This document shows, piece by piece, positions 1,976-18,969 of a DNA stretch of 52,527 nt (positions within the stretch are counted from its first letter, which is position 1; the number at the start of each line of letters is the position of its first letter). A program made the position numbers and the translations under genes. Source of the DNA: Candidatus Goldiibacteriota bacterium (GTDB taxonomy: Bacteria > Oederibacteriota > JAAXVQ01); contig JAGVPM010000005.1 in NCBI GenBank assembly GCA_020052235.1, positions 1-52,527 of the forward strand, given 5' to 3'. The notes under the pieces are model-generated. The model did no database searches. It worked only from the letters and a program-made list of their open reading frames with translations, and had not been told where the DNA came from.

Positions 1976-3904
1976 ATGACGCAAGCTGCTGCTGAACGCA
2001 TGGAATTTAAAACCGAAGTCAATCAACTGCTGGACTTGGTGGTGCACTCGTTGTACTCGCATCGGGATATCTTTTTGCGCGAGCTGATTTCCAATGCTTC
2101 GGATGCCATTGATAAAATACGCTACTTGTCATTGACCGATGCGGGCCTGCTGGAAGACGACTCTGCCTGGCGCATCAAACTCAGCGCGGACAAAGACAAG
2201 CATACGGTCACCATTTCGGACAATGGAATCGGCATGACGCACGATGATCTGATCAACAACCTGGGCACCATTGCCAAATCTGGCACTAAGGAATTTTTGG
2301 CCAACCTCCAGCAAAATAAGGATAATGTGAATTTGATCGGGCAATTCGGCGTGGGTTTTTATTCCTCGTTCATGGTGGCGGACAAGGTGGAAGTGGTCAC
2401 CCGGGCTGCGAAATCCGAAGCTTTTCGTTGGGTTTCCGACGGGAAACAGGGATTTGAAATCACTCCGGCGGAGAAATCCGCGCGCGGCACGGATGTGATT
2501 TTGCATTTGAAAGCCGATGCCTATGACTATACCAACGACTATGAACTGCGCAACCTGGTGAAAAAATATTCGGATTTCGTCGAGTTTCCCATTGTCATGG
2601 ACGTGGAACACACGCATACGCCCCAGGATGAAAACGGCCAGCCGCTCAAAGATGCCAAACCGGAAAAGCGCATGGAAACCGAGACACTTAATTCCCAGAA
2701 AGCCATTTGGAGCAAGAATAAAAGCGAAGTAACACCGGAAGAGTATAAGGAGTTTTATCAGCATCTGGCGCATGATTTTTCCGAACCTTTGGAAACCATG
2801 CACTATCGGGCCGAAGGCACCATTGAATTCAAGGCATTGATCTTTATTCCAACCTTGGCGCCTTTTGACCTGCTGGCCAAGGAAGGGCAAAAGGGCCTGC
2901 AATTATATATCAATCGCGTGTTTATCATGTCCGATGCCAAGACTTTGATTCCTCCGTATCTGCGTTTTCTGAAGGGCGTAGTGGATACCACGGATTTGCC
3001 TCTCAATGTTTCGCGCGAGATTCTGCAGCAGAACGCGCAGCTTGAGAAAATCCGCAAAAACATCGTCAACAAGGTGTTGGCCACCCTGAAGGAAATGAAA
3101 GAAAAGGATTATGAAAAATATTTGAAGTTTTACCGCACGTTCGGAGCCGTGCTGAAGGAAGGGCTGCATTACGACCACGATAAGCATGAAGCCATTGCCG
3201 AACTGCTCTTGTACGAAAGCACCACGCAGGAAGCCGGGGTGTTGCGTTCGTTTGACCAATACCTGGCCGACATGAAGCCGGAGCAGAAATCGATTTCTTT
3301 TTTGACTGCCGAAGATAGAAATCAGGCTTTGGCTGCTCCGCGGTTGGAAGCTTATAAAACCAAGGGGTGGGAAGTCCTGCTCATGCTGGAAACCATAGAT
3401 GAAATCGTAATTCCGGACCTGTTTGAGTTTAAACAAAAACCTTTGCGTTCGGTGAATCACGGGGACATGGAAATGTCTGACGATGAAAAGCGCCAAGTGG
3501 AGGAAGAAAAGAAAAAAGCCGGGGAAACGTATAAGGAGTTGTTGGAGTACGTGAGCAAGCAGCTTGAACCCGATGTCCAGGAAGTCCGTTTTTCGCCGCG
3601 CTTGACCGAGAGCCCGGCCTGCCTGATCACTGAGGATTTCGGCCTGAGCCGCGCCATGCGCGAAATGTGGAAAGCCATGGGCCGCGAACTTCCGCCCCAG
3701 AAGTTTATTTTGGAACTCAATCCCAACCACCGCCTGATTGCCGCCTTGGCCAATTTGCAACACAAAGCCCCTATGGATGGGAAGCTGCAGGATTTTGTGC
3801 GTTTGATTTATGACCAAGCCTTGCTGTCCGCTGGGTTGAAGATCAAAGACATGGCCGCGTTTACCCGGCGGCTTAATCAAGTGCTGGTGGATGCGGGGCA
3901 ATAG
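1976..3904 (+). CDS. htpG: Chaperone protein HtpG (bacterial Hsp90)
   Basis: A 642-residue cytosolic ATP-dependent chaperone, about the usual length of bacterial HtpG. The N-terminal GHKL ATPase shows ELISNASDAID (Asn40 and Asp43, Mg/ATP binding), DNGIGM (82-87) and the lid glycine motif IGQFGVGFYSSF (121-132). The middle domain carries the expected catalytic-loop region with LPLNVSREILQQ. The C-terminal dimerisation domain ends without an MEEVD motif, as in bacteria. GGAGAG lies 7-8 nt before the ATG. It is a single-gene unit: the next gene has its own promoter. Confidence 0.98.
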   Translation: MTQAAAERMEFKTEVNQLLDLVVHSLYSHRDIFLRELISNASDAIDKIRYLSLTDAGLLEDDSAWRIKLSADKDKHTVTISDNGIGMTHDDLINNLGTIAKSGTKEFLANLQQNKDNVNLIGQFGVGFYSSFMVADKVEVVTRAAKSEAFRWVSDGKQGFEITPAEKSARGTDVILHLKADAYDYTNDYELRNLVKKYSDFVEFPIVMDVEHTHTPQDENGQPLKDAKPEKRMETETLNSQKAIWSKNKSEVTPEEYKEFYQHLAHDFSEPLETMHYRAEGTIEFKALIFIPTLAPFDLLAKEGQKGLQLYINRVFIMSDAKTLIPPYLRFLKGVVDTTDLPLNVSREILQQNAQLEKIRKNIVNKVLATLKEMKEKDYEKYLKFYRTFGAVLKEGLHYDHDKHEAIAELLLYESTTQEAGVLRSFDQYLADMKPEQKSISFLTAEDRNQALAAPRLEAYKTKGWEVLLMLETIDEIVIPDLFEFKQKPLRSVNHGDMEMSDDEKRQVEEEKKKAGETYKELLEYVSKQLEPDVQEVRFSPRLTESPACLITEDFGLSRAMREMWKAMGRELPPQKFILELNPNHRLIAALANLQHKAPMDGKLQDFVRLIYDQALLSAGLKIKDMAAFTRRLNQVLVDAGQ

Positions 3905-3933
3905 ACCTCCCGCGCATTGGATAGATGCCCATA

Positions 3934-3962
3934 GTAGGGAACGGTTTCAAACCGTTCCCTAC
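3934..3962. repeat. REP-like palindrome downstream of htpG
   Basis: GTAGGGAACGGTTT and its exact complement flank a single central C, making a perfect 29-base palindrome. No T-run follows, so it is a poor intrinsic terminator. It shares the GGAACGG/CCGTTCC core idea with the hairpin at 24566, which suggests a dispersed intergenic family. Confidence 0.6.
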
Positions 3963-3994
3963 AAAATTACATCCCGCAAAATTTATCTGCTGAC

Positions 3995-4022
3995 TTGAAA
4001 TCTATTTAATTCATGATATAAT
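3995..4022 (+). promoter_or_regulatory. Strong sigma-70-type promoter for the giant gene
   Basis: TTGAAA (3995-4000, 5 of 6), 16-bp spacer, TATAAT (4017-4022, 6 of 6). The expected start is near 4029, giving a leader of about 37 nt with AGGTGG placed 6-8 nt before the ATG at 4066. Confidence 0.75.
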
Positions 4023-4065
4023 TGCGAAATAGGTTCATTTTAAAACAACCAAAAGGTGGAAATGA

Positions 4066-7000
4066 ATGGCTAAAGATAATCGCTTTTTTACCTTACCTAG
4101 CCGACGTGTTTTGTGGGCTAGAAGCATTGCGCTGCTTATTACATTTTCTTTTCTTTTACCTTATCTTACCTGGGCATTTGATAACGGAAATTATCAGTTG
4201 TCCCAATCCGGATTTTCCGGTATTCAATATGTTGGCCGGGAATTGACTATTCCGCAGAAATTCGGGACGATTCAACAAAAATTCCAAGGTTCCGGCAAAA
4301 CCGTAGTTTGCATCCAGGATCTGCATTGCAATTATGAAGTTCAGAAAAATATTGCCAACATAATCCGCTATATGTCTGAAAATCACGGCTTGAAATTAAT
4401 GGGCGAAGAAGGCGCTTTTGGGACCGTTAATCTGGAAGTGTTGCGCGGTTTTCCCTTGGCCCATGTCCGGGAAGAGATCAGCGATTATTTTGTTAAACAA
4501 GGCAAGCTCACAGGCGCTGAACTTTTCGCGGCCGTGAATCCCGCACCCATCCGGTTGGAAGGGGTGGAATCGCAGGATTTATATGAAGCCAGCTATACAA
4601 CCATCCGGTCTTTTTTAACTGCGGAGAGCCAGGGTTATGTATCGGATTTGCGGGATATGCTTGAGAGTTTGAAGCCGGGGCTTTATACCCCCGGGTTGAT
4701 CCGGTTCGACGACTCGGGCAAAGCGTTTCGCAAAGGCAGTCTGGATCTGTTCCATTATGTTTCGGTTTTGAAAACATATGCCGCCAAGTTGCGCGTGGAT
4801 ACCCGGGAGTTGGAGTCGTTTAACCGTTTTGTCCGCCAGGGCCAAGCTTCTGCCGGCGAAGCAGGCCAGGATGCACTTTACCGGGAGCTTGACCAATTGG
4901 ATGCTGAAATCCGCGAGCGGTTGTATACAGCGGAAAATCAAAAACAATTGGACCAGTTGGGGCGCGGCCTGGACCAAATCGAAAAGCTCATCAATATTTC
5001 GGCTACACCCGAAGAAGTCAAGCGCATCCAATCCCGCCGTTCGGAGTACGCGGTCAAAATATTCCGGGAATTCATCCGGCAGTATGACCCGCAATTCAGC
5101 GATTTGTGGGATGAAGAGATTTCTTCCTTGGACGGATTTGTGGATCAGGCCATGGCATTTTATACGCTGGCCGACCGCCGCAGCATCCGGTTCGTGGATA
5201 ATCTATTGAAAAAAATGGATAATGCTCAAGAAAATCTGGCGGTCATGATCAACGGGGGATTTCACGCCGAGGGCATTGCCGCGGAATTAAAACGCCGGAA
5301 TATTTCCTTCATCGCCGTGCAACCCCGCCTGACCCGGCAAGACTGGGTTAATCCGTATTATTCGCTGTTGCAGGGTAAAAAGCTTCCTTTGGAAAAGTTG
5401 CTGGAAAAAAAGCAGTCGATTTTTGCTGTGCACACTTGGACCGAGTCTGTGGATTTCAAGCGGGTGATGGAAGCGCTGCTGGGGTCTATTGCCCTGGCCA
5501 GGATGCCCGCCTTGGATCTGAAGGGACGGGAAGCCTTACAGGCGTTTCTGGCCAAGCTGCAAGTAGTTCATGCCGCCTCTTTGGCGCCGGAGGCCTTGGC
5601 GGAGCTCGGCTTGCCTGTTGCCAGTGTGTTCGCACGCCTGGAAGTTGCGGATGGAAATCCGGATTTATACGTACTGGCGGCGGCGAGTGAAAATTGGCCG
5701 GATGAGAAAATGCCGGTTTATGACCGTGTGAAATTAGAGAATTTCGACGGATTGGGAATGGCCTTCGGCTCCCGGCAGGATTTGCTCCAGGTGGCTGCCG
5801 GATTGCGAAGCGGGGAAACACTTTGGGCGGGATTGAAAAAACAAGCAGGGCGCGTATTTGAGTTGCTGGCGCGCCTATTCAGCCGTGACAGCCTGACCAA
5901 TGCGCTGAATTTATTTTTCTTTGATCATCAGGCCTGGATTGATTTCGCGCAATCTCCGAATTTTGTTTTATTTTTATTCGGGTTTTCCGCAGGACCCGCG
6001 CAACTGAGCGCAATTCCTTTCCTGGCCATGGGCGGGATCAAGGCAGTCGGGGATGAAAACCGGCATTTCGCGAGAACGCTCCTTATTAATTGCCTGTCAG
6101 ATGCTGAACTGAAAAAAACCATGCTGGAGGCTCCGCTAGTACAGGCGAAATTGCAAACACAAGAAATCCAGGCGGTTTTAACCCAGATAAGTTCGGACTC
6201 CGTTGCCCAGGGAGAGATCGTCCGGGAGGTTGTAACGATTAATGGGGAAAATCCGGCAAAACTGCGAACCCAACTGATGGAATTGCTGGGGAACATTGCT
6301 TGGTCGCAGAAGGGTGCTAAGTCCGTAGTAGAGAAACCAAAGCCCGTAGAGAAAAAAGTCGAAGTTGCGCCGGTTTCCAACCCGGCGTTGGCCAGCGCGG
6401 ACGCTCTGGTTAAAGCATTATATGATGATCCGACAAAAACCTGGGAATTGTGGAAAACCGCAGACCCAAAAACACCCGCAGGAAGAAAAACCCGGATTCT
6501 ATTCCTGGATGCATTGCATTTAATTGGTGTTGATAATCCCAATGCGCCTATGGGTTTCATTATGCCGGCTTTTCAGCAGGAAGAAGAAATGGCGGACCTG
6601 CTCCAAGCGCTGAGTACGCGGAGCGAGTTTGGGAATTTAGTGGCACAAATTCGCGGCATCAGGGAATCGGAATCCCAAGGCAAACCAGTCGCAGCAACGC
6701 TTCGAGTTGCGAAAGTGGAACCCAAGGCCAAGGGTAAACCTGGGAAAGAAGCCAAGCCCAAAGAAGAAATCAAAGCCGTTGATCAGTTTGCGAAACTCAA
6801 TGCGCTAAAGGAGAGGTTGGAGAACCCGGTAGAAGCAGCCAGGCAAAAAGCCGATGAAGAGGCGCTGGCTAAGGAGCGGGCTGCAGCCAAGGAAAAACTC
6901 GAGGCTGTGGCCAAAAAAGCACCCAAGCCTGCCAAACCCAACTTGGCGGAAATATTTAAAAAGCAACAGGTGGAAAGCAAGTTGCAGGTCTCCCGGCAAT

Positions 7001-10000
7001 CTTTTCAGGATGGTGATTTAAAGACAACCTGGAATTTAGTGCAGGAAGTATTGAAAATTGATCCATTGAATTCCGAGGCCAAGCAACGGGCGGATTTGGT
7101 TGATGGGATCGAGGCGGAGCTGGACCGTGCTGAAGCCCTAAAAGCTGAAGGCAAGCTGCCGGAAGCAGCCGAAGTTTACAGCGGGATTTCCGTGAAGTTC
7201 GCCGAAAAATTGCAGGGTATGGATGTTTGGCACATGCTCGACGCGCGTATGGATATCGCGCGCGTACTGTTGGGCCAGAACCGGTTGAGCCTTGCGCAAG
7301 GCATCGCTGAGGCCGTGTTATTACTGGACTCCGAGTCGCCGGAGGCTCAGGAATTGGTAAAAAGCATCAACACGGCAGTTATGAAAAAACGCATAGATAA
7401 TTTGCTGGAAAAAGCCAAGAACGCTTTGGCAACAAAGCGCGGCGGAGAATTGGCCAAGGCATTGCTTTGGATGGATCAAGCCCTGGAATATTCCAGCGAC
7501 GCAAACGGATTGCTGGGCGAAGAAATTTTAGCCTTGCGCGCCGGCATTGCGCAGGAGCAGCAGGCGCAACAAGTTGTAGAGCTGGAGCGCCGGGTCGAAA
7601 TTGTCATGGCCCAAGGACACTGGCTGGATGCATGGAATCAAATCCGGCAAGCACGGAGTGGGGCGGGAAATATCGAGTTGCTGACGCTGGAAACCAAGGT
7701 GTTGCAACGGATTTTGGAAACAGCCAAAACCAGGATTGCGGGAGAGACGGAAAAAGCAGCGGAATTACTTCTGGCCCTGGCTCCGGCTTTTAAGGATGAC
7801 GCGTCCTTGCAGTCTACGGAATTTTTTCAAACTTGGATTCAGGCCACGATAGACTTGGTGCGCCAAGGATTGCAAAAAAATAGCGAACTTGAGCTTGTGT
7901 TCGGCTGGGCCGAACCCTTGAGGGCTTTGGCGCCGGAACAGGCGCGCGAGGTTTTAAAGCTCCTGGCTGCGCGCCAGGACCCGGTGGGGCATGTGGCCGG
8001 ATTATTTACGGAGTTGCGCACGGCCCGGGAGAATTCGCGCCAAGCCAAAGGCTCGGAAAAAGCTGAGCTGGAAGCAACAGCCAAAAAGTTGCGGGCTCAA
8101 ATCGGGGAAGAAACCGGTAAGGTTGCGGTTTATTTCAGAGCGCTACACCGGGCGCAGGCCGCTTCGCCCAAGGGGTGGGAGTTTTTTATTCAGACCGCTT
8201 TGGCTGATCCATTTGCGCTTCCCAGGCTCTATGCTGCCGCGCCCGAGGATGCCATGGCCGGGTTGGAAGCTTTGGCCGAGACTTTTCCCAGCGCTATAAC
8301 AGGCATGTGGAAGGACCGCAAAGCCTTTGAAGCCCGCCCGGAGTTCCGCGCTGTCCTGCGGCAATTCATGCTGACCCGCTGGCACGGACCGCTGGCGGTT
8401 TTAAATGCCTACCTGGAGCAGGAACGCAAATATCTTATTGCCCAAGAGCTCGCAGGATATGGCGCGGATAAAGCAAACTATGTTTCGGATTTGTTGGTGA
8501 GCGTCAAATCGGTTTATGAACTCTCGGCTACCGGTACATTAAACATCAGTGATTTGAGGAATTATTACAACCTGGCATTGGGTATAGTGGATGATATTTT
8601 AAGAAATGATTTCGGTTTCTTCATGGACAACATGTTCACGCTGGAACCGGCTGGGGAATCCATGGTCCAGGGAAAGATTGGGATGCCGACGGAGGTCACC
8701 GGGTATTTATTTGCAAGATCCGCCAAACGTTTGATTCCGCGAATCCTGGAAGCTAGCCCTGAATCGGACGCGGAAAAATTGGCACTTTGGGTTTCCCGCA
8801 TGCATGCTTATTTTCTGAGCCATGAGGATACCAAAGGGTTAAGCCCGGCCATAGATGCGGATATGCATAAAATGTTGGAAGCTGTCACGGATCAAGTCTA
8901 TAAAGAAGGTTCTTTCAAAAATATAGACGCCAAAACGGCCCGCTTCTTCCAAGCGGCATCGGAATTGAGCGAAGTTTCCCTTTCGCCTTTCATGTTCCGC
9001 CCGGAATTGGAAGCGCTCATGTCCCGCGAGGATGCCCAGGAACTGATTCAGCTGCTGCATGCTTCGGATCTTTCCTTTAAAAACCGCATGGCGATTATTT
9101 TCCGGTTGGCTATGTTGTGGGACACTGCTTTGAAAAATAAGACACTGAACATTCAAAACCTAAAAAAAATGTGCGGCCAGCCGGACCCGCTGGTTAGGTC
9201 CAATGTGTATTTTGCCATGGCTTTGATTCGCGGCAAGCAGAGCCAGTTGGAGATACAAAAGCAAGTTAATGGTCCGGAATTCGTCCGCTTGATGAGTCAC
9301 GCGGTCACGCCCGAAGGGGAAGTGGATCCCAATCATGTGCTGACCATGCTGCACATGCTTTGGATGGGCGAAGATACGGAAAAAATACTGATGACGTATG
9401 CGGTGGTTGCTTCCTTGGCATTGAACGGCAGCGTGGTCATAAATTTGGACGGGAAGCGGCAGGAATTTCTTTTGAAGGAAGGCCTGGATGCGCGCCCGGC
9501 CATTGCGGCGATTTTGCAGACGGCTTTGGCGCATGAGTGGCTGCAGCACGAACCGCACGCATATCAAATCGTACGCGATACGCTGCACTTGTTGGAGACA
9601 CCAATGCCCGAAAATGAAAAACGTGAGATTTACGGCCGCATCATTCGCGTGATGAGTCTTGGACCGCAAGCCAAGGGACAAGTTTGGGCCGAGTATGAAA
9701 AAGCCGTTGCCCCGTTGCGTGCTGCTCAAACCAAGTCCGGCGCGGTTGCGTCTGAATCAACCGGCGGCCTTTGGCCTTTGACTCGCGGTCCCATTGTCCA
9801 ATGGCTGATGGAGAAAAAAGGCCTTTCGCCTGCTTGGGCGGCCCGAATTTATGATTTTGGTTTGGCGCTCTTGGTGGAAAATAAAATTTCCTATGCGGTT
9901 GGCGGCGCCGTGGTCGGATTAATCGGCCTGGCCGCGTTTGTTGTGACCGGAAATTTTTCGCTGCTCTTGACGCATGGGTTGCAAGCCGGTTGGGTGCTTT

Positions 10001-13000
10001 CCTGGGGAGCCGTGTTTTTCCCTCTGCATTTTGTGACCAGCCAGGGCCTGCGGGCCCCGCCGAAACGGACTTGGGTTCCAGCGCTGGCCATTACCCTAAT
10101 CAACCTTGCCCTGGCATTCACGCCGCTATCCTGGTGGGGTCTCATGCTGGCAGCCATGGCCGTGCATGGCACGGTGAATGTGATAGCCCCGGGCGCGGCA
10201 CGTTTTGTAGCAGCGATTTTCAAACCCGGAAGACTAAGCGGGGGACAGTTTGCAAGGACGTTGAATTACATAACCGTGGCCTTTGTGGCTGCGGATGCGC
10301 TCTCGGTTTTGCTTTTTGGGCATCCATTTTTATCGCCTAAATTAACGGCTTCCTTAGGCATGACCGGATTCTTTTTAACCACCGAAGCGGTTTTGGATGT
10401 AAAAGATGTGCCTGGCACCACAGCCTTGCCTGCACAACGGGTCACCTATTTGGCAAGCCTCGAGCCCAGGGTCGTGCATCAGGGCCCGGAAGCGCCTGCC
10501 TTTGTGGAAATCCAAAACACCAGCCGGCCTGAAGAAGTTATTACCTTGGTCCGCAAGGCGAAATTAAGCCGGAGCAACCAAGCGGAGGAATATATAGGCG
10601 CTATTCCGGGCGATGGCCCGGGCCGGGAGATTAAAATATTAATCTATTTCTATCCCGGCTTTTTGGAGCTTATCAAAATTCAAGTGGGCGAGGCCGGTGT
10701 TGGCCGCGGCATTGCCTCCAGCATAGCCCAGTGGCTTTTGCAATTGGCCAAGACCACGTTTCCGGCAACGCAATATCCGCTTCATTTCCGGGCCGTTGAA
10801 AATCCCGCTTCTTTGGGGATCGCCGAAAATATTTTTCAGCCCGGTACGTTGCAGATTCAAGACGCAAGCCGGGAAATACCGGACGGAATCTTGGGACCAT
10901 GGCAGGATCTATGGGATCCCAAAGTCGATCTTTACCGGATTACAGGCCCGGTTTATGTTCCGTGGTCGTCTGAAACCATTCGTCTGGAAAGGCGCGGGAA
11001 TGAATATATTATCCGTTCCGCACCCAAAGGATATAAGGTTAATATTCACGGAGCCCGTATTGAAGTATTCGACCCCTCCGGCCGCCGCGTAAACGGGTTG
11101 CGCACGGATACGGACGGCTATGGTTATTACAATTTGAAAGGCATTCCGCGCCAGTTGGCTTCATCTCCGGCTGGAAGCGAAATTCAAGCGCAGGAAGCTT
11201 TTGCCGCCACGGCCCGGCCAAGGCAATATGAGCATCTTTATGTTTCAGCACCCCCGGCTGTTCAAACCTTGGAAAAAGCAAATACCGGCTCCCAGTCAAA
11301 ATCGGAAAATGTTTTTGCCCGCGCATTTAAGCAGTTGGCGCGCCTATTCAACCCGGTTGGCTTGAAGCAAGCGCTGGCTTTATTTTTATACGATCACCAG
11401 GCCTGGATCGCATTCGCGCAATCTCCGTATTTTGTTTTATTTTTGTTCTGGTTTTCAGCCGGGCCCGCGCAGCTCAGCGCGATTCCTTTCCTGGCCATGG
11501 GCGGGATCAAGGCAGTCGGGGATGAGAACCGGCATTTCGCCAGAACTATTCTTATCAATTGCCTGACAAGTGCCGAGCTGAAACAAACCATGCTGGATGC
11601 TCCGCTGGTACAGGCGAAATTGCAAACACCGGAAATCCAGGCGGTTTTGACTCAAATAAGTTCTGATTCCATTGCGCAAGGACAGCTTGTGCAGGAAGTT
11701 GCGAAGATTAATGATGAAAATCCGGAAACATTAAAAACCCAACTGAGGGAATTGCTGGGGACCATCGCTTGGTCGCAGAAGAATGCCAAGCCGGTTGAGA
11801 AACCAAAATCCGTGGAAAAAACAGTTAAGGTTGAGACGGGTCCCAGCCAACCGGCGCTGGCCGGCGTGGATGCCGTGGTTGCAGCTTTGTTTAATGATCC
11901 GGCGGAAATCTGGTCAGCTTGGAAGACCGCGGACCTGAAAACGCCCGCAGGAAGAAAAACCCGGAATCTGGTCCTGGATGCGTTGCATAAAATTATGGAT
12001 GAAAACGGACCTAATGTGGCTATGGGTTTCATTATGCCGGCGTTTCCCGGCAATGAAATGACGGACCTGCTCCAAGCGCTGAGTGCGCGGAGCGAGTTTG
12101 GAAACTTGGCGGCGCAAATTCGAGGCATCAGGGAATCAGAAGCTCAAGTAAAGCCAAGCAAACCAGTGGCATCGGTGCAGGTTGCGAAAGTGGTGCCCAG
12201 GACCAAGGATAAACCCGGGATTAAGCCCAAAGAAGAAATCAAAGCCGTTGATCCTTTTGCGCAACTCAAGGCGCTACAGGAGAGATTGCTGGACCCGGAA
12301 GCGGCAGCCGAGCAAAAGATTGCTCTGGAGGCTCAGGCCAAGGAAAAGGAAGCGGCCAGGGAAAAAGCCGCCGCAGCGGCATTGATTAAGCAGGCGGCAG
12401 ACAAGAAAAAAGCTGATGAAGATGAATTGGCCAGGCAGGCAGCAGCCAATAAAAGGACTGAAGAAGCGCTGGCTTGGAAGCAGCTTGAGGCCGCAAGACG
12501 GGAAACAGCCAAGGCCAAACCCAAGACCGTAACCAAGGAAGAACCCAAGGCTCAACAACAATCGACGGATCCTTTTACTCAAAAGCTGAACGAGTTAAAC
12601 CAACTTTTAGAAACCGGAAAATATTTGGATGCCCGGAAAGCGTATAAGAATATTTTGGATTATTACGCCGAACGGTCATCTGAAGCTGAAACTGTTGCCT
12701 CGGAATTTATCCAAGTAAAAATCACAAAAGCGCAAGGCCATTTGGAAGCGCGCGAATTCCGGGATGCCCGGATAACCCTGCAAAATATTTATGAGTTTGA
12801 GCCGGGAAATTCAGCTGCCGGCAACCTGAGTAACCAATTTGTCCGGGGCAAGATTGATGAAGCGAACCGGTTGTTGGAAGCGGGAATTATTGACGAAGCG
12901 AAAACAGCCTTGCAGGATGTAACTGATTTTGCCCCGGAGAATGCCGAAGCCAAGGAGTTGCCCCGCCTATTTGTACAAAAGAAGATCGCGTTAGTTAAAA

Positions 13001-16000
13001 AAGCCTTGGACAAACGCGAAGTGGATGCGGCCAAAGTTGCTTTGCAGTTAGTGTTGGCTGTTTCTCCGGGAAATGTTGAAGCCAGGGGAATTCTCGGCGT
13101 CTTCTGCGAGGGCCAAATGACTTTGGCGCGGAATGCACTGCAAGAGAGCCAAGCAGCGCAGGCTGGAGCGGCAATAAAAGCAGTGCTGGCCATGGATCCC
13201 AGTCATGCCCAGGCGCTGGCCTTATCCAAACAATTTATTGATAAAAAAACCGCGGAAGCGGCGTTGGCCTTGAAACAAGGCCGCTTTATCCAAGCGCAGA
13301 AAGCCGCGCAGGATATTTTGGTCCTGGATCCGCAAAATGCCCAAGCCGTGGCTTTGGCCGGCGTGTTGCATAAAACCGCGGATGAATTGACCCAAGCAGC
13401 GCAATTAAGAACACAGAATAAATTATCCGAAGCAGCGGAAATGTATGGAAAAGTGGCTGCGAATTCTATTGAGGATCTTAAAACCGCAGGCCTGTGGTTG
13501 CAAGTGCGCGGCGAGTTATTCTTGATCGCGCAAACTCTGATGGAGCAAGACAGCCTGGAAAGAGCGCGCAAAACTGCCGAGACCTTGGGCACGTTGGCGC
13601 CGGAGGATCAAGCTATTGCAACCTTGAAGGCGAAAATTGAAGTTGCCGCCAATAACAAACGAATCCGGACTTTATTGCTGTCGGCCAAACCAGCGCTGCA
13701 ATCCGGGCAGCCCAGTGAATTGAATAAGGCTTTGCAAAATACGGAAAAGGCTTTGACCTATGCCGTTGCTCCCGGCACGGACGCGGCTCTTCAATCGGAA
13801 GCTGAAGGGCTTAAGACAGAGCTGGAAAAGCAATTGGAGCCATTTAAACAAAAAGAGCAAGCTCGGCAAGTTGAACAAGCCCTGGGAAAAAATCAATTGC
13901 CCGAGGCTTGGCAGGGAGTCCGCCAACTGCGCAACCTGGATCCTGCAAGCGGGGTTTTTCAGCAGCTGGAAGAAAAAGTTTTCAACGCGATCATGCTGGA
14001 GACACAAGGAATTCAGGCGCCCAAATTGGGAAATGCCGCCAACCTGATTTTGGAAATTGCCAAAATTTTTCAGGAAGATGCCCGGCTAAAATCTTCGGGA
14101 TTTTTAAGCCCGCTGGTGGACCGGCTAGTGCAATTGGCGCAGGCGCATTTGCAAAGCGAACCGGCGGATTTGGGCCGCGCGGGTGAATTGACGGATCATG
14201 CTCTGGTCCTGGATCCGGGCAATGTTTTGGCCCGTCAAATGAAACGGACTTTAACCGAACACGTGAACCCGGAACTTTTTTTAACCAACGCATTTACCGA
14301 ATTATTTAACCTTAGGAAAAAAATCAAAGAAGCCAAAGGCGATCAGAAGAAAGATTTGGAGGAAGAGGCCAAACAGGTAAGACGGAATATCATGAAATAC
14401 CAGGAACAGCCGCTGATTTATTTTCAGGCGTTGTACAATGCTCAAAAGGCCTCACCCAAAGTCTGGGAAAATTTTACCCGCGAATTTTTACCCGATACCT
14501 TAATTATGCAGATCCCAACCGTACCGGATGCGAATACCCGGATGAAAGCCCTGGCCCGGACTTTCCCCAGCGCGTTGGTGAAACTTATCGGCGACCGCAA
14601 ACTGTTGGAGAGAAATCCTGATTTCCGCAAGACGCTTTGGGAGGTTATGCTCACTGGATGGACCGGGCCAACTTCGCTTTTAAGTTATTATCTGGGCCAG
14701 GAAAAAAAGTATGTGCTTGAACAGGAAGCCGCAGGGTTTAAAAATCGGGCCGAAGGATACGCATCCCCTTTATTAAGCACCATGCAATCGCAGTATGAGA
14801 CTATGGCGAAAATACCAGAGGCTGAAAGGGACAAAAGAGAAGTCCAGGATATGGGCGCTTTATTAAATGACGCCACCATTATGCTGTTGGCCATCATAGA
14901 AGCCAATCCTGGTTTCTTCCTGGAACTGGTAGTGGCACTCAAGCCAAACGAGGAATTTAAGCAAAAGGGCATACTTGATTTTCCGGCGGCTGTTATCGGC
15001 GGGTTGTTCGTAAAAAACGAGAAGTTCGCCCGGGTTCTATTGAATCAATGGCCCGAAGCGGATATTGATCTTTTGGCGGGCTGGTTCGTGCAATTCCATC
15101 AATATCTTTTGGATCTCAACCGCGCCGATTTTCTGAATGCCTTGGATGTGAGTTTTTCCAAACAAATTGATTATGCTACGGATAAACTTTTTGAAACCAA
15201 TTCATTTACATTTGAACCCAAATTAATTGGACTGATTGAGGGCGTGCATAAAAGGGATAAGCTGGTCATAACTCCCGTGCGGGTGAGAAAAGAGCTGGAA
15301 GCGCTTCTGCCCATCAGCAATCCTGAAGAGTTAGTTGCAAGGCTGGAAAAACCGGGCCTCACGCACAATGAGCAAATGGCCATTGCACTGCGCCTGGCAA
15401 TCATTTGGACGCAGGCATTAAACGCGGCCAATCCCAAAACCGCCAAAGAAATTGCCGGAAATATTCAAACCCTGATTGAACACAAAGATCCGCTGGTTTC
15501 AGCCATCCTCAGTTATGGAGCAGTCTGCATACGCAACCTGAATTATAAACTGGAAGCGCTCAAGGCGGTGGACCGCAAATATATCCTGGCGTACGAGACC
15601 TTGCTCCAGGGCGGAGAAATAGGCGCTGACAAAATTACTTTGATTGGCGGGAAAGTGGACGAAAATACGCTTTTGCGCATGTTGTATTTGCTCCGGACGC
15701 AAGACGCAAAAATGAAGCTTTCCGTGGTTTACAGCATTTTCGGTTCTTTAGTTTTCAATCATAAAGTTGCGCTGAGAATGGACGGCAAACAATGGCGGGT
15801 GGGAAATGTCCTTCCGGAAGAAGTTCCGAAAATCAAGGCTGCTTTTGAGACAGCACTTGCCAAGGAATGGGTTCGGGAAGATTTTGAGACCGACACGGTA
15901 ATCAAGGATTTTTTACTCTTGCAGAATGAGGAAATCATGCCGTTGGCCGAAAGGCGCGGAATTTACATGGAAATTCTCGATTTAATAACCGCCGCCCCCA

Positions 16001-18969
16001 AATTCGGCAAGCCACTCTCCGAAGAAGAACGTTGGAAAAAATATGAAACCATTGTCGCACCGGTGCGCGCGGCCCTTGAAGTTAAGATCAGCGCGGCTGC
16101 GGCTGAACCAACCGGCGGCCTGTGGCCCCTGACCCGGGAACCGCTGGTGAAATGGCTGGTGGAGAAAAAGGGCGTTTCATCCAAGTGGGCGGCCCGGATC
16201 TATGATTTTGGTTTGGCGCTCTTGGTGGAGAATAAAATTTCCTATGCAGTCGGCGGCGCCGTGGTTGGTTTGATCGGCTTGGCCGCGTTTATTGCGACTG
16301 GCAATTTTTCCCTATTGTTGACACACGGGTTCAACGCCGGTTGGGTGCTTTCCTGGGGAGCTGTGTTTTTTCCCCTGCATTTTGTAACCAGCCAGGGCTT
16401 GCGGGCGCCGCCGAAACGGATTTGGATTCCCGCGCTGGCCATCACCTTAATCAACCTGGCCCTGGCATTTACGCCGCTCTCCTGGTGGGGGCTCATGCTG
16501 GCGGCCATGGCGGTGCATGGCACGGTGAATGGGATTGCCGCTGTCTTTGCCGGAATTTTTTCTGGGCAGATGCGGCAGGCCGCCTATGGCGAGGAGTTTA
16601 TCCAATGGCAAGCATTTGTTAATGCACATGACAAACGCGCGTTTCTCTCTACTTTCCAAAAAACCCAAGAAAAAAATCGTGCTTTGTCCCCTGATTCGAA
16701 CTTGTTTCCGCTGGTGGCCGGAAAATTATATTTTAACGATACTTTGGGCAATGCCCTTCAGAGTATGGATGCTTTGTTGTCTCAGCAACTTGGCCACGAG
16801 CAAACACAAACAATCCGTGATTTTACCAGACATATTGCCGACATTATGCGCATTGCCCAAGATTCCATCTATCCAAGCGGAATTGAACTCGAGGCGCTGG
16901 ACCAAGGGAAAACACAGGAAATTCCCGGTCAAATTCTAAGGCTTCGCAATCAACATTTGGAATACTGGGATCAAATGGTTGAGAAAATCCGGGGAGTTGC
17001 GCCGGGGAATCAGTTTTTGTCGGACGCAGCGCGTTTTTACCGCAACCGCCTGGAATTGTTTTTTAATGACTTGGAAATAGCGATGAAAAAAACACTCGAG
17101 CTTCCGGGCGGAAATTTTCCCACGAACAACCCGGGGAAGCCGTTGGCTGAAGTGTTGGGCGAAGGGCGAAACGGCGAACCGCTGTTTAAAAATCATTTCC
17201 TGGGCGAGCTGCTTTATGGTTTCCGCAACCGGATTTTCGGTGACAATCTGAACTATCTGCTCAGGCACATTTACCTCCGCACAGGTGCATGGTTTGGGGC
17301 GGGATACGAAGTGAATGCGGATTATGCCGGCCTGCACGGGAAAGACTATGACGCTTCGCAAGCTTTGGAAGCGCGCGATACTGTATTTGCCTTGACCATC
17401 CCCGCGGTTTTCAAGGGCGTATTGGAGCGCGCCCCGGAGAAGGGTTGGTGGGCCAAAGCAAGTTATGCCCTCCAGGCGGCGCTGGTTCGTTCGGTGGTGT
17501 ACCCGCAGTTGCTGTTTTTCGTTTTTCAAACCAAACTGTTGCAGGCGCGCCAGGACCTGCAGGCCCTTTCCAATATTTGGGAGTATGTGCAGTCCCGGGC
17601 TGAGACTTTGCTCCAGCGCTGGTTCCCGGGCTTGGGCCGCATACGCTTGGCTGATTTTTATAAAAACACCATGCATAACCGGGATGTGGGCATTACCCGC
17701 ACGGAAGTGATTAAATTACTCGATCTATACCGCCAAATTTTGAACCGCCAGGCGCACGGCTTGAACCAGGAATTGCAAACGCAGGTGCAAAGTTTGCTGG
17801 ACACAGGTCAGGATCCCACCACCGAGGCTTTGGTGGAAACCTTGCGGCTGGTCAAAGTGGAGAACCTTACGGACCCGCTGATGCGGAATTTAGTCGGGCA
17901 ATTGCAAGCTGCGATTTTTTCAGCGCAGGAAACCGTGCGCCGGGGCGGGGATCCAAAATATCTTCGCCTGGAAATTAATCACATTGCCGATCTGATCATT
18001 CACAGCCGCCGGGCTGCGCCGGCTTTGACAGGGTCTTTAAAAATCGAAATGCCTCAATCCGTTGAACTTTACACGGACCAGGCTCATTGGCTGTTTGATG
18101 CTCAAGCGCGGTCCGGGGCCATCGGCATGGCGGATGCATTGCTGCAGGCGGCGGCCGGGTCGCCGTTTTTAGCAGACCTGCAATTCCTGCAAAAAGTGCT
18201 CGCGCAGGGGGAAGTGAGCAAGGCGGACAGTTATCAGCTTTTGGCCATGTTGGAGACCATGACATCGTTGCAATCGGATACGTCAGCCGTGCTTGTGGGG
18301 GAGGATGTAACCCGCTATGTGGGCAGCCTTACCTGGGGAGGGCGCGCTCAGCGTTTTGCCTTAGGCAAGAAAACGCTCAGCGTAGTCGAACCCGCTGTGT
18401 CCACGGTTTTGGCCCCGGATGCCGAGGCCATTGAGCAACTCAACTCCGGCAATCTTAGCCACCAGGTTAGTTTAGTACCCTTTCAGGGGCGCTTGCCCGA
18501 ACGTTTGGCCGAAACCGGTAATTTTCAACGCGATCTGGGACGGTTTTTACAAACCACGCCCGGGTTCCAGGGGAGGCTCTCTCCAACCCAAGCTTTGGCC
18601 CAGGCGTATTACCGTTGGCACGGGAATCCCGGCGAAAAGAATTTGAGGCTGTTAAGCCGGGTGCTTTTGCGGATCATGCGGAACGAAGCCAAGCGGGCGG
18701 AAGCGCAACCTGAAGCCACAGCCGGGTATGTAGCTGCGTTGGAAGCCATGAATCATTTGTTTGCGGACTCATCCGTGTTCCGGGGCAATGAAAAATTGGG
18801 AACCTATCGCGAGGCAACCGTGCATCTGCCTGCGTGCTTCCGGCAGGGTGAGAAATTGCGGTATTTGGCCCTGTGGCGCAAAGCACCGGACTTTATTGCG
18901 GCCCGGAATGTAGAAATGGAAATGCAGCGTCAACAACTGCTCAACTTCCGCACCAGCGGCGCGGCCTAA
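4066..18969 (+). CDS. Giant multi-domain, membrane-anchored protein (4,967 residues) with duplicated repeat module
   Basis: One uninterrupted frame; function unknown. Seen in order: signal anchor (about 15-38). A domain at about 50-470 with IQDLHCNYEVQ (His87), LMGEEGA and INGGFHAEGI (His400), whose spacing resembles the ChaN/TIKI/erythromycin-esterase-like fold. Copy A of a large module (about 602-2038): hydrophobic DHQAWIDFAQS block, Lys/Pro/Ala-rich linker, TPR-like helices, long alpha-helical region, and four membrane segments from about 1940. A unique module (about 2045-2420) with a GEAGVGRGIASSIAQWLL stretch that faintly recalls a GNAT acetyltransferase. Copy B (about 2425-4155), with six 44-residue TPR-like units. 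A unique C-terminal region (about 4160-4967) with a hydrophobic helix near 4480. RBS AGGTGG supports the start. It most likely acts at the envelope or periplasm. Comparable giants are known in Omnitrophota. The family assignment of the N-terminal domain is inferred. Confidence 0.9.
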   Translation: MAKDNRFFTLPSRRVLWARSIALLITFSFLLPYLTWAFDNGNYQLSQSGFSGIQYVGRELTIPQKFGTIQQKFQGSGKTVVCIQDLHCNYEVQKNIANIIRYMSENHGLKLMGEEGAFGTVNLEVLRGFPLAHVREEISDYFVKQGKLTGAELFAAVNPAPIRLEGVESQDLYEASYTTIRSFLTAESQGYVSDLRDMLESLKPGLYTPGLIRFDDSGKAFRKGSLDLFHYVSVLKTYAAKLRVDTRELESFNRFVRQGQASAGEAGQDALYRELDQLDAEIRERLYTAENQKQLDQLGRGLDQIEKLINISATPEEVKRIQSRRSEYAVKIFREFIRQYDPQFSDLWDEEISSLDGFVDQAMAFYTLADRRSIRFVDNLLKKMDNAQENLAVMINGGFHAEGIAAELKRRNISFIAVQPRLTRQDWVNPYYSLLQGKKLPLEKLLEKKQSIFAVHTWTESVDFKRVMEALLGSIALARMPALDLKGREALQAFLAKLQVVHAASLAPEALAELGLPVASVFARLEVADGNPDLYVLAAASENWPDEKMPVYDRVKLENFDGLGMAFGSRQDLLQVAAGLRSGETLWAGLKKQAGRVFELLARLFSRDSLTNALNLFFFDHQAWIDFAQSPNFVLFLFGFSAGPAQLSAIPFLAMGGIKAVGDENRHFARTLLINCLSDAELKKTMLEAPLVQAKLQTQEIQAVLTQISSDSVAQGEIVREVVTINGENPAKLRTQLMELLGNIAWSQKGAKSVVEKPKPVEKKVEVAPVSNPALASADALVKALYDDPTKTWELWKTADPKTPAGRKTRILFLDALHLIGVDNPNAPMGFIMPAFQQEEEMADLLQALSTRSEFGNLVAQIRGIRESESQGKPVAATLRVAKVEPKAKGKPGKEAKPKEEIKAVDQFAKLNALKERLENPVEAARQKADEEALAKERAAAKEKLEAVAKKAPKPAKPNLAEIFKKQQVESKLQVSRQSFQDGDLKTTWNLVQEVLKIDPLNSEAKQRADLVDGIEAELDRAEALKAEGKLPEAAEVYSGISVKFAEKLQGMDVWHMLDARMDIARVLLGQNRLSLAQGIAEAVLLLDSESPEAQELVKSINTAVMKKRIDNLLEKAKNALATKRGGELAKALLWMDQALEYSSDANGLLGEEILALRAGIAQEQQAQQVVELERRVEIVMAQGHWLDAWNQIRQARSGAGNIELLTLETKVLQRILETAKTRIAGETEKAAELLLALAPAFKDDASLQSTEFFQTWIQATIDLVRQGLQKNSELELVFGWAEPLRALAPEQAREVLKLLAARQDPVGHVAGLFTELRTARENSRQAKGSEKAELEATAKKLRAQIGEETGKVAVYFRALHRAQAASPKGWEFFIQTALADPFALPRLYAAAPEDAMAGLEALAETFPSAITGMWKDRKAFEARPEFRAVLRQFMLTRWHGPLAVLNAYLEQERKYLIAQELAGYGADKANYVSDLLVSVKSVYELSATGTLNISDLRNYYNLALGIVDDILRNDFGFFMDNMFTLEPAGESMVQGKIGMPTEVTGYLFARSAKRLIPRILEASPESDAEKLALWVSRMHAYFLSHEDTKGLSPAIDADMHKMLEAVTDQVYKEGSFKNIDAKTARFFQAASELSEVSLSPFMFRPELEALMSREDAQELIQLLHASDLSFKNRMAIIFRLAMLWDTALKNKTLNIQNLKKMCGQPDPLVRSNVYFAMALIRGKQSQLEIQKQVNGPEFVRLMSHAVTPEGEVDPNHVLTMLHMLWMGEDTEKILMTYAVVASLALNGSVVINLDGKRQEFLLKEGLDARPAIAAILQTALAHEWLQHEPHAYQIVRDTLHLLETPMPENEKREIYGRIIRVMSLGPQAKGQVWAEYEKAVAPLRAAQTKSGAVASESTGGLWPLTRGPIVQWLMEKKGLSPAWAARIYDFGLALLVENKISYAVGGAVVGLIGLAAFVVTGNFSLLLTHGLQAGWVLSWGAVFFPLHFVTSQGLRAPPKRTWVPALAITLINLALAFTPLSWWGLMLAAMAVHGTVNVIAPGAARFVAAIFKPGRLSGGQFARTLNYITVAFVAADALSVLLFGHPFLSPKLTASLGMTGFFLTTEAVLDVKDVPGTTALPAQRVTYLASLEPRVVHQGPEAPAFVEIQNTSRPEEVITLVRKAKLSRSNQAEEYIGAIPGDGPGREIKILIYFYPGFLELIKIQVGEAGVGRGIASSIAQWLLQLAKTTFPATQYPLHFRAVENPASLGIAENIFQPGTLQIQDASREIPDGILGPWQDLWDPKVDLYRITGPVYVPWSSETIRLERRGNEYIIRSAPKGYKVNIHGARIEVFDPSGRRVNGLRTDTDGYGYYNLKGIPRQLASSPAGSEIQAQEAFAATARPRQYEHLYVSAPPAVQTLEKANTGSQSKSENVFARAFKQLARLFNPVGLKQALALFLYDHQAWIAFAQSPYFVLFLFWFSAGPAQLSAIPFLAMGGIKAVGDENRHFARTILINCLTSAELKQTMLDAPLVQAKLQTPEIQAVLTQISSDSIAQGQLVQEVAKINDENPETLKTQLRELLGTIAWSQKNAKPVEKPKSVEKTVKVETGPSQPALAGVDAVVAALFNDPAEIWSAWKTADLKTPAGRKTRNLVLDALHKIMDENGPNVAMGFIMPAFPGNEMTDLLQALSARSEFGNLAAQIRGIRESEAQVKPSKPVASVQVAKVVPRTKDKPGIKPKEEIKAVDPFAQLKALQERLLDPEAAAEQKIALEAQAKEKEAAREKAAAAALIKQAADKKKADEDELARQAAANKRTEEALAWKQLEAARRETAKAKPKTVTKEEPKAQQQSTDPFTQKLNELNQLLETGKYLDARKAYKNILDYYAERSSEAETVASEFIQVKITKAQGHLEAREFRDARITLQNIYEFEPGNSAAGNLSNQFVRGKIDEANRLLEAGIIDEAKTALQDVTDFAPENAEAKELPRLFVQKKIALVKKALDKREVDAAKVALQLVLAVSPGNVEARGILGVFCEGQMTLARNALQESQAAQAGAAIKAVLAMDPSHAQALALSKQFIDKKTAEAALALKQGRFIQAQKAAQDILVLDPQNAQAVALAGVLHKTADELTQAAQLRTQNKLSEAAEMYGKVAANSIEDLKTAGLWLQVRGELFLIAQTLMEQDSLERARKTAETLGTLAPEDQAIATLKAKIEVAANNKRIRTLLLSAKPALQSGQPSELNKALQNTEKALTYAVAPGTDAALQSEAEGLKTELEKQLEPFKQKEQARQVEQALGKNQLPEAWQGVRQLRNLDPASGVFQQLEEKVFNAIMLETQGIQAPKLGNAANLILEIAKIFQEDARLKSSGFLSPLVDRLVQLAQAHLQSEPADLGRAGELTDHALVLDPGNVLARQMKRTLTEHVNPELFLTNAFTELFNLRKKIKEAKGDQKKDLEEEAKQVRRNIMKYQEQPLIYFQALYNAQKASPKVWENFTREFLPDTLIMQIPTVPDANTRMKALARTFPSALVKLIGDRKLLERNPDFRKTLWEVMLTGWTGPTSLLSYYLGQEKKYVLEQEAAGFKNRAEGYASPLLSTMQSQYETMAKIPEAERDKREVQDMGALLNDATIMLLAIIEANPGFFLELVVALKPNEEFKQKGILDFPAAVIGGLFVKNEKFARVLLNQWPEADIDLLAGWFVQFHQYLLDLNRADFLNALDVSFSKQIDYATDKLFETNSFTFEPKLIGLIEGVHKRDKLVITPVRVRKELEALLPISNPEELVARLEKPGLTHNEQMAIALRLAIIWTQALNAANPKTAKEIAGNIQTLIEHKDPLVSAILSYGAVCIRNLNYKLEALKAVDRKYILAYETLLQGGEIGADKITLIGGKVDENTLLRMLYLLRTQDAKMKLSVVYSIFGSLVFNHKVALRMDGKQWRVGNVLPEEVPKIKAAFETALAKEWVREDFETDTVIKDFLLLQNEEIMPLAERRGIYMEILDLITAAPKFGKPLSEEERWKKYETIVAPVRAALEVKISAAAAEPTGGLWPLTREPLVKWLVEKKGVSSKWAARIYDFGLALLVENKISYAVGGAVVGLIGLAAFIATGNFSLLLTHGFNAGWVLSWGAVFFPLHFVTSQGLRAPPKRIWIPALAITLINLALAFTPLSWWGLMLAAMAVHGTVNGIAAVFAGIFSGQMRQAAYGEEFIQWQAFVNAHDKRAFLSTFQKTQEKNRALSPDSNLFPLVAGKLYFNDTLGNALQSMDALLSQQLGHEQTQTIRDFTRHIADIMRIAQDSIYPSGIELEALDQGKTQEIPGQILRLRNQHLEYWDQMVEKIRGVAPGNQFLSDAARFYRNRLELFFNDLEIAMKKTLELPGGNFPTNNPGKPLAEVLGEGRNGEPLFKNHFLGELLYGFRNRIFGDNLNYLLRHIYLRTGAWFGAGYEVNADYAGLHGKDYDASQALEARDTVFALTIPAVFKGVLERAPEKGWWAKASYALQAALVRSVVYPQLLFFVFQTKLLQARQDLQALSNIWEYVQSRAETLLQRWFPGLGRIRLADFYKNTMHNRDVGITRTEVIKLLDLYRQILNRQAHGLNQELQTQVQSLLDTGQDPTTEALVETLRLVKVENLTDPLMRNLVGQLQAAIFSAQETVRRGGDPKYLRLEINHIADLIIHSRRAAPALTGSLKIEMPQSVELYTDQAHWLFDAQARSGAIGMADALLQAAAGSPFLADLQFLQKVLAQGEVSKADSYQLLAMLETMTSLQSDTSAVLVGEDVTRYVGSLTWGGRAQRFALGKKTLSVVEPAVSTVLAPDAEAIEQLNSGNLSHQVSLVPFQGRLPERLAETGNFQRDLGRFLQTTPGFQGRLSPTQALAQAYYRWHGNPGEKNLRLLSRVLLRIMRNEAKRAEAQPEATAGYVAALEAMNHLFADSSVFRGNEKLGTYREATVHLPACFRQGEKLRYLALWRKAPDFIAARNVEMEMQRQQLLNFRTSGAA
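5869..10180 (+). repeat. Module copy A inside the giant gene
   Basis: First copy of the internal duplication. It begins at GCGCGCCTATTC and ends at CACGGTGAATG. It shares a 44-nt identical block with copy B (6013-6056 versus 11482-11525) and a 29-nt identical block (9850-9878 versus 16201-16229). It holds a single TPR-like unit at the place where copy B holds six. Confidence 0.9.
11338..16531 (+). repeat. Module copy B inside the giant gene
   Basis: Second copy of the internal duplication with the same boundaries as copy A. It is 882 nt longer (offset 5469 at the start, 6351 at the end). Most of the excess is the TPR expansion at 12589-13380 and a longer Lys/Ala/Glu-rich predicted coiled coil before it. 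In the final membrane block, differences from copy A are mostly at third codon positions. Confidence 0.9.
12589..13380 (+). repeat. Six tandem 132-bp units encoding 44-residue TPR-like helical repeats
   Basis: Units start at 12589, 12721, 12853, 12985, 13117 and 13249, each exactly 132 nt. The protein pattern in each is a helix with a small-residue turn (LLEAGIIDEAKTALQDV, ALKQGRFIQAQKAAQDI), then a Pro/Asn/Asp turn (FAPENAEA, LDPQNAQA), a pattern close to TPR. DNA identity between units is low, so they are old. The array is in frame within the giant gene. Confidence 0.85.

Follow-up and report, generated by a model that had tools for sequence, protein, structure and literature searches.

What does a bacterium make with one gene of almost 15 kb, and does such a gene stand alone? 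In most reports, giant bacterial genes are isolated cases, poorly conserved and of unknown function. The best-known comparison for the present case would be the giant ORFs of Omnitrophota, which are defined at >20 kb and for which adhesion or coat roles are proposed, at least in those parts of Seymour et al. 2023 (PMC10066038) that we draw on. Giant genes of Elusimicrobia / PVC relatives are mentioned in the portion of PMC12057145 used here, which cites West-Roberts et al. 2023. The gene that we analyzed lies in a stretch of 52,527 nucleotides (the window), which is contig C72 of a Candidatus Goldiibacteriota genome of 3.17 Mb in 200 contigs. In the following we ask how this gene is built, whether it has relatives, and how its parts may work together.

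Results and Discussion

The frame from 4066 to 18969 is one ORF for 4967 amino acids, just as an earlier note on this DNA had read it. Ahead of it we found a plausible to good putative ribosome site, AGGTGG at 4054-4059. The same note had given the gene its own consensus promoter. The motif itself is present, although chance alone would already give one such site in the stretch. The features of the locus are the following:

3995..4022, plus strand: promoter-like site TTGAAA-16-TATAAT, 11/12 positions matching, 1 found against 1.0 expected by chance
4066..18969, plus strand: giant ORF, a single open frame of 14.9 kb and 4,967 codons
4108..4179, plus strand: predicted signal peptide or signal anchor, aa 15-38 (..ALLITFSFLLPYLTWAF), same segment in aligned head homologues
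4171..5436, plus strand: head domain, aa 36-457, predicted TIKI/Ere-like hydrolase with invariant D85, H87, E115 and H400
5848..10221, plus strand: module copy A, aa 595-2052, pairs with copy B
5848..6936, plus strand: 5' flank of copy A, apparently homogenised, aa 595-957, with a hydrophobic segment at aa 635-653
9763..10188, plus strand: membrane module copy A, aa 1900-2041 (E-N ... F-x-x-x-H ... H-x-x-x-N), recurs in other giants
10426..11169, plus strand: inter-copy module, aa 2121-2368, with an acetyltransferase-like motif (lead only)
11317..16575, plus strand: module copy B, aa 2418-4170, pairs with copy A
12583..13395, plus strand: TPR-like array of about six 44-aa units, aa 2840-3110, copy B only, from autocorrelation
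16114..16539, plus strand: membrane module copy B, aa 4017-4158, recurs in other giants
17152..18966, plus strand: C-terminal domain, aa 4363-4967, common to the C-termini of other giants
18928..18966, plus strand: C-terminal tail ..QQLLNFRTSGAA, ending ..RTSGAA, of the [AS]A type

The segment aa 20-38 is strongly hydrophobic and fits a signal peptide or anchor, in line with the signal anchor proposed before. Cysteine accounts for only 0.16% of the giant vs 1.10% in the neighbouring genes, and this seven-fold depletion favours an extracytoplasmic location. The membrane modules belong to a family of ~140 residues that is present in many giants of the order, some of which have two copies. Added to the hydrophobic segments of the N-terminus (aa 20-38) and of both 5' flanks, they imply a membrane protein. 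The envelope location predicted by the earlier note is hence backed by the signal segment, the Cys depletion and the recurrent membrane module. Judged from the sequence, and given the hydrophobic segments in each copy's 5' flank, the cores could face either side of the membrane. The motifs F-x-x-x-H and H-x-x-x-N, kept in most aligned homologues of the membrane module, are also those of the CPBP/ABI intramembrane proteases and stand in the right order. However, the module shows E-N-x-x-S instead of the first motif E-E-x-x-x-R and gave no Pfam match; with that motif missing, we rejected its assignment as a CPBP protease.

Between the two copies lies a module (aa 2121-2368) that was thought to be unique. 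In fact, another genome of the order has two long frames with related sequence. When the three sequences are compared with the R-x-x-G-x-A coenzyme A loop, G-I-A-x-S is invariant, while the preceding R-x-x is variable. A search for a GNAT match gave nothing in Pfam at E up to 10, and the label GNAT acetyltransferase is for us a lead only. The whole giant, searched against Pfam and NCBIfam, gave sub-threshold TPR-like matches only.

The head at the N-terminus, also taken for unique before, turned out to be the opposite. It has (aa 15-457) ten further copies in its own genome at 28-42% identity, 11 in all. A profile of 14 heads gave 120 matches in the 8 genomes of the order, with 8-34 in each of them; from the phylum's other 37 genomes it drew one weak match to a 45-residue fragment. 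The head occupies the N-terminus, at residues ~5-475 of frames that reach up to 9482 aa or about 28 kb, and in the 8 genomes the head-bearing frames that are complete at both ends are all >1,000 aa long. The closest head relative (L057:2971-5760) is 58% identical over aa 1-586. The sequence behind its head is without match in the window protein, which suggests that the cargo, as we call the sequence behind the head, may turn over within the genus.

By sequence the head is not readily placed: it gave no Pfam, NCBIfam or PDB sequence match, and its profile found nothing relevant among Pfam members and PDB sequences. An AlphaFold model (pLDDT 79) covers most of the head confidently. With this model, the top four Foldseek hits in the PDB are EreC and Bcr135, at E 8e-3 to 9e-2 with low TM-scores and none <1e-3; against viral structures the matches are weak, one being a TraB family protein at E 1.1. 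The catalytic-type residues are conserved. D85-x-H87, E115 and H400 are invariant in the 14 aligned heads and are also present in the Elusimicrobia members of a second alignment. E115 follows H87 by 28 residues, exactly the spacing of His85/Glu113 in Bcr135 and of His3902/Glu3930 in RRSP (PMC6254334). In VvRRSP, from the TIKI superfamily, the 2His/2Glu set is essential (PMC6254334). The predicted beta-alpha-beta core and the pattern D-x-H ... E (28 residues) ... H are like those of the TIKI / erythromycin esterase / ChaN / TraB superfamily (Bcr135 3B55, EreC 6XCS). Unlike this superfamily, the head has Asp (D85) in place of the first Glu of the set, carries a long helical insert, lacks a sequence-profile match, and fronts giant proteins. 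In fold and residues the head thus resembles the TIKI proteins, and we regard it as a candidate member of the superfamily.

The other end of the protein is shared as well. Aa 4363-4967, which the earlier note had counted among the unique parts, closes about ten other giants as well, two of which, in frames of 1540 and 2043 aa, have both the head and the C-terminal domain. PDB profile and structure searches with this domain gave no known fold. At the very end stands the feature that we expected least, a short tail. The [AS]A C-terminus is found in 43 of 56 distinct closed giants vs 1 of 165 other frames (Fisher p 6e-33, a value that homology inflates), the controls being ORFs from the same loci. 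A basic cluster is located upstream of the tail at -7 to -13. The tail appears in three C-terminal groups that are unrelated by BLAST (24/29, 9/10 and 6/7) and in 4/10 singletons. The tmRNA tag of the organism is AEPLALAA, to which the tails of the giants are similar without matching it. On the level of gene order, htpG neighbours a giant in both species; in the window (1976-18969) it lies upstream, whereas in the same-genus genome (L054:2287-6809) it is on the other side, downstream of the giant's C-terminus.

Between head and tail the sister giants carry very different domains: SecA-like, glycogen-debranching, cytidylate-kinase-like, HD, methyltransferase, NUDIX, LOG, GH26 and HTH. Giants with PPDK and phosphoglucomutase domains are found in Elusimicrobia. 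An FCPU426 giant contains a tandem-duplicated triosephosphate isomerase (TIM), in which GNWKTY, GHSEAR and AYEPRWAI are preserved; its identity to the separate TIM of the same genome is 35-39%. The cytidylate-kinase-like domain of a sister giant has, on the other hand, lost its P-loop. These enzyme domains indicate that the family captures genes, with active sites kept in some cases and lost in others.

Several of these loci deserve a separate description. The tandem TIM at L068:18137-20086 (FCPU426 record JAUVAV010000004.1; G002:C78) looks circularly permuted in the giant frame; its Lys, His and Glu motifs are retained, and a separate normal TIM is present in the same genome. A giant of 5668 aa (L040:1309-18312) has the same head followed by cytidylate-kinase-like, glycogen-debranching, glucanotransferase and HD domains. 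Another one (L052:377-10297, same frame in L064) contains SecA DEAD, preprotein-binding and P-loop domains. In genome G006 no strong stand-alone SecA was seen, possibly through incompleteness. Genome G004 has ten head giants, six of them >8,000 aa, with a total of about 70,000 aa, which is near 6% of its 3.6 Mb; two of them adjoin each other on contig C36.

Could the giants then be self-processing polyproteins, cut after export into pieces that function separately, by the head or by a protease that reads the AA tail, for example S41 outside or an AEPLALAA-reading Clp inside the cell? The TIKI-like head would suit this idea, since known endopeptidases are among the members of the superfamily (PMC6254334). 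So would the likeness of the tails to the end of the tmRNA tag, the one S41 peptidase that the genome carries, and a cargo made of separable enzymes. However, the residue set of the head differs by one Glu to Asp, and the tails are mostly without the Leu at -3. We consider such processing unlikely.

The earlier note had linked the gene to the giants of Omnitrophota, a link that our results do not support. The nearest head homologue (66%) is in a same-genus genome recorded as Candidatus Firestonebacteria bacterium W9_Combined_metabat1_077, and the next relatives include candidate division FCPU426 records. From Omnitrophota, the contig scan gave a single distant head match, in a genome whose heads are in frames of 517-1813 aa. 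The gene is also shorter, at 14.9 kb, than the 20 kb criterion requires (PMC10066038). What the gene has in common with the Omnitrophota giants, as far as the consulted parts of that paper describe them, is a very large single frame, membrane segments, a predicted envelope location and few recognisable domains. It differs by its phylum, by its length, and by the adhesion domains, which we did not find here; a common head is not described for the Omnitrophota giants in the same parts of Seymour et al. 2023 (PMC10066038). As to the giants of Elusimicrobia, genome G045 has five of them, 4652-9302 aa long, with a distant version of the head. This version is only 22-32% identical, and the AA tail is absent from most of the few closed Elusimicrobia frames.

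This comparison bears on the possibility that the protein is an adhesin or surface coat, as proposed for the Omnitrophota giants in the cited sections of Seymour et al. (PMC10066038), in which the modules would serve passively, to space and to offer surfaces for binding. Size, predicted envelope location and repeat architecture would all agree with it. Pfam and NCBIfam searches of the giant, however, gave no adhesion, lectin or sugar-binding domain, and the sisters contain metabolic enzyme domains instead. We therefore judge such a role to be rather improbable.

The internal duplication reported for this gene was confirmed: aa 595-2052 matches aa 2418-4170, visible both in DNA and in protein. 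At the DNA level there are ungapped stretches of 75-89% identity at the ends of the duplication. As proteins, the copies agree at 78% of their first 155 residues and at 86-93% of their last 160, while the core between these ends is 26-44% identical. In the first flank dS comes to about 0.6 and in the membrane module to 0.5, whereas the core is saturated. Relatedness between the copies thus varies along their length, and the duplication has two layers of divergence. dN/dS between the copies is 0.31 and 0.16 in the two flanks, and for the head it is 0.18 against the same-genus homologue, so that flanks and head are under purifying selection. The simplest reading of the sequences would be an old duplication in which both flanks were homogenised later, presumably by gene conversion; cassette exchange of the core between conserved flanks would look alike.

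The difference in size between copy A (4.3 kb) and copy B (5.2 kb) is largely due to the TPR-like array in copy B, which gives an autocorrelation of 0.78 at lag 44, the best shuffled value being -0.12. As TPR, a 34-residue repeat, aa 2840-3110 do not qualify: the period is 44, and Pfam Fis1_TPR_C scores 18.6 bits, below the cut-off of 25.3. For the core of the duplicated module, the homology searches that we ran gave no homologue beyond the giant itself. Internal duplications were present in 27 of the 65 long frames examined, making this one typical for the family and not exceptional.

Could all this be neutral accretion, with an unimportant long frame gathering duplicated and captured genes, and with only the head and the membrane parts functional? 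A core cargo that resembles nothing else found, copies that are saturated in the core, and captured enzymes without motifs, such as the P-loop of the cytidylate kinase, would be expected from it. But the frame has stayed open across 14.9 kb, dN/dS is well below 1 at the measurable flanks, the captured TIM retains its catalytic residues, and C-terminal domain and tail are conserved. Such an origin seems quite improbable to us. An assembly artefact, with the duplicate or the entire frame chimeric, is extremely improbable even for a 200-contig assembly, because the copies diverge over their whole length (about 30% identity in the core), the frame runs without a break, the same-genus genome contains the head as well as the C-terminal domain, and many sister giants from other assemblies have internal repeats.

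Conclusion

In summary, we found that the giant follows a common plan: a predicted export signal comes first, then a TIKI/erythromycin-esterase-like head, cargo that can be exchanged, membrane modules, the C-terminal domain and, at the end, a short ...(S/G)-A-A tail. Its sequence makes it a member of one paralogous head-tail family, and we think that it is probably an exported, membrane-anchored modular protein with a hydrolase head and a TPR-like scaffold. The giant would be exported through Sec via its N-terminus; the signal segment, together with the repeated membrane modules that end each copy, would keep it in the envelope. The head probably acts as a hydrolase on an ester or peptide bond, either of the envelope or of the giant, while the helical TPR-like modules would form a long protein-binding scaffold. 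The tail may mark the protein for recognition, most likely by a C-terminus-reading protease or chaperone. The family grows by internal duplication together with gene capture.

One may speculate further that head and tail are the two address labels of a dedicated, so far undescribed machinery for the export, anchoring and perhaps cutting of giants, in the order and, with the head only, in Elusimicrobia. Any gene recombined between the labels, even a glycolytic enzyme, would then become an envelope giant, and flanks of the type seen in the duplication would be recombination handles for cargo swapping. This broader idea is tentative and, in our eyes, still doubtful. The common head and C-terminal tail, in turn, unite >100 giants of one order into a family with a testable plan. 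This family offers handles on how giants are exported, anchored and processed, and on the part that duplication and gene capture play in their growth.
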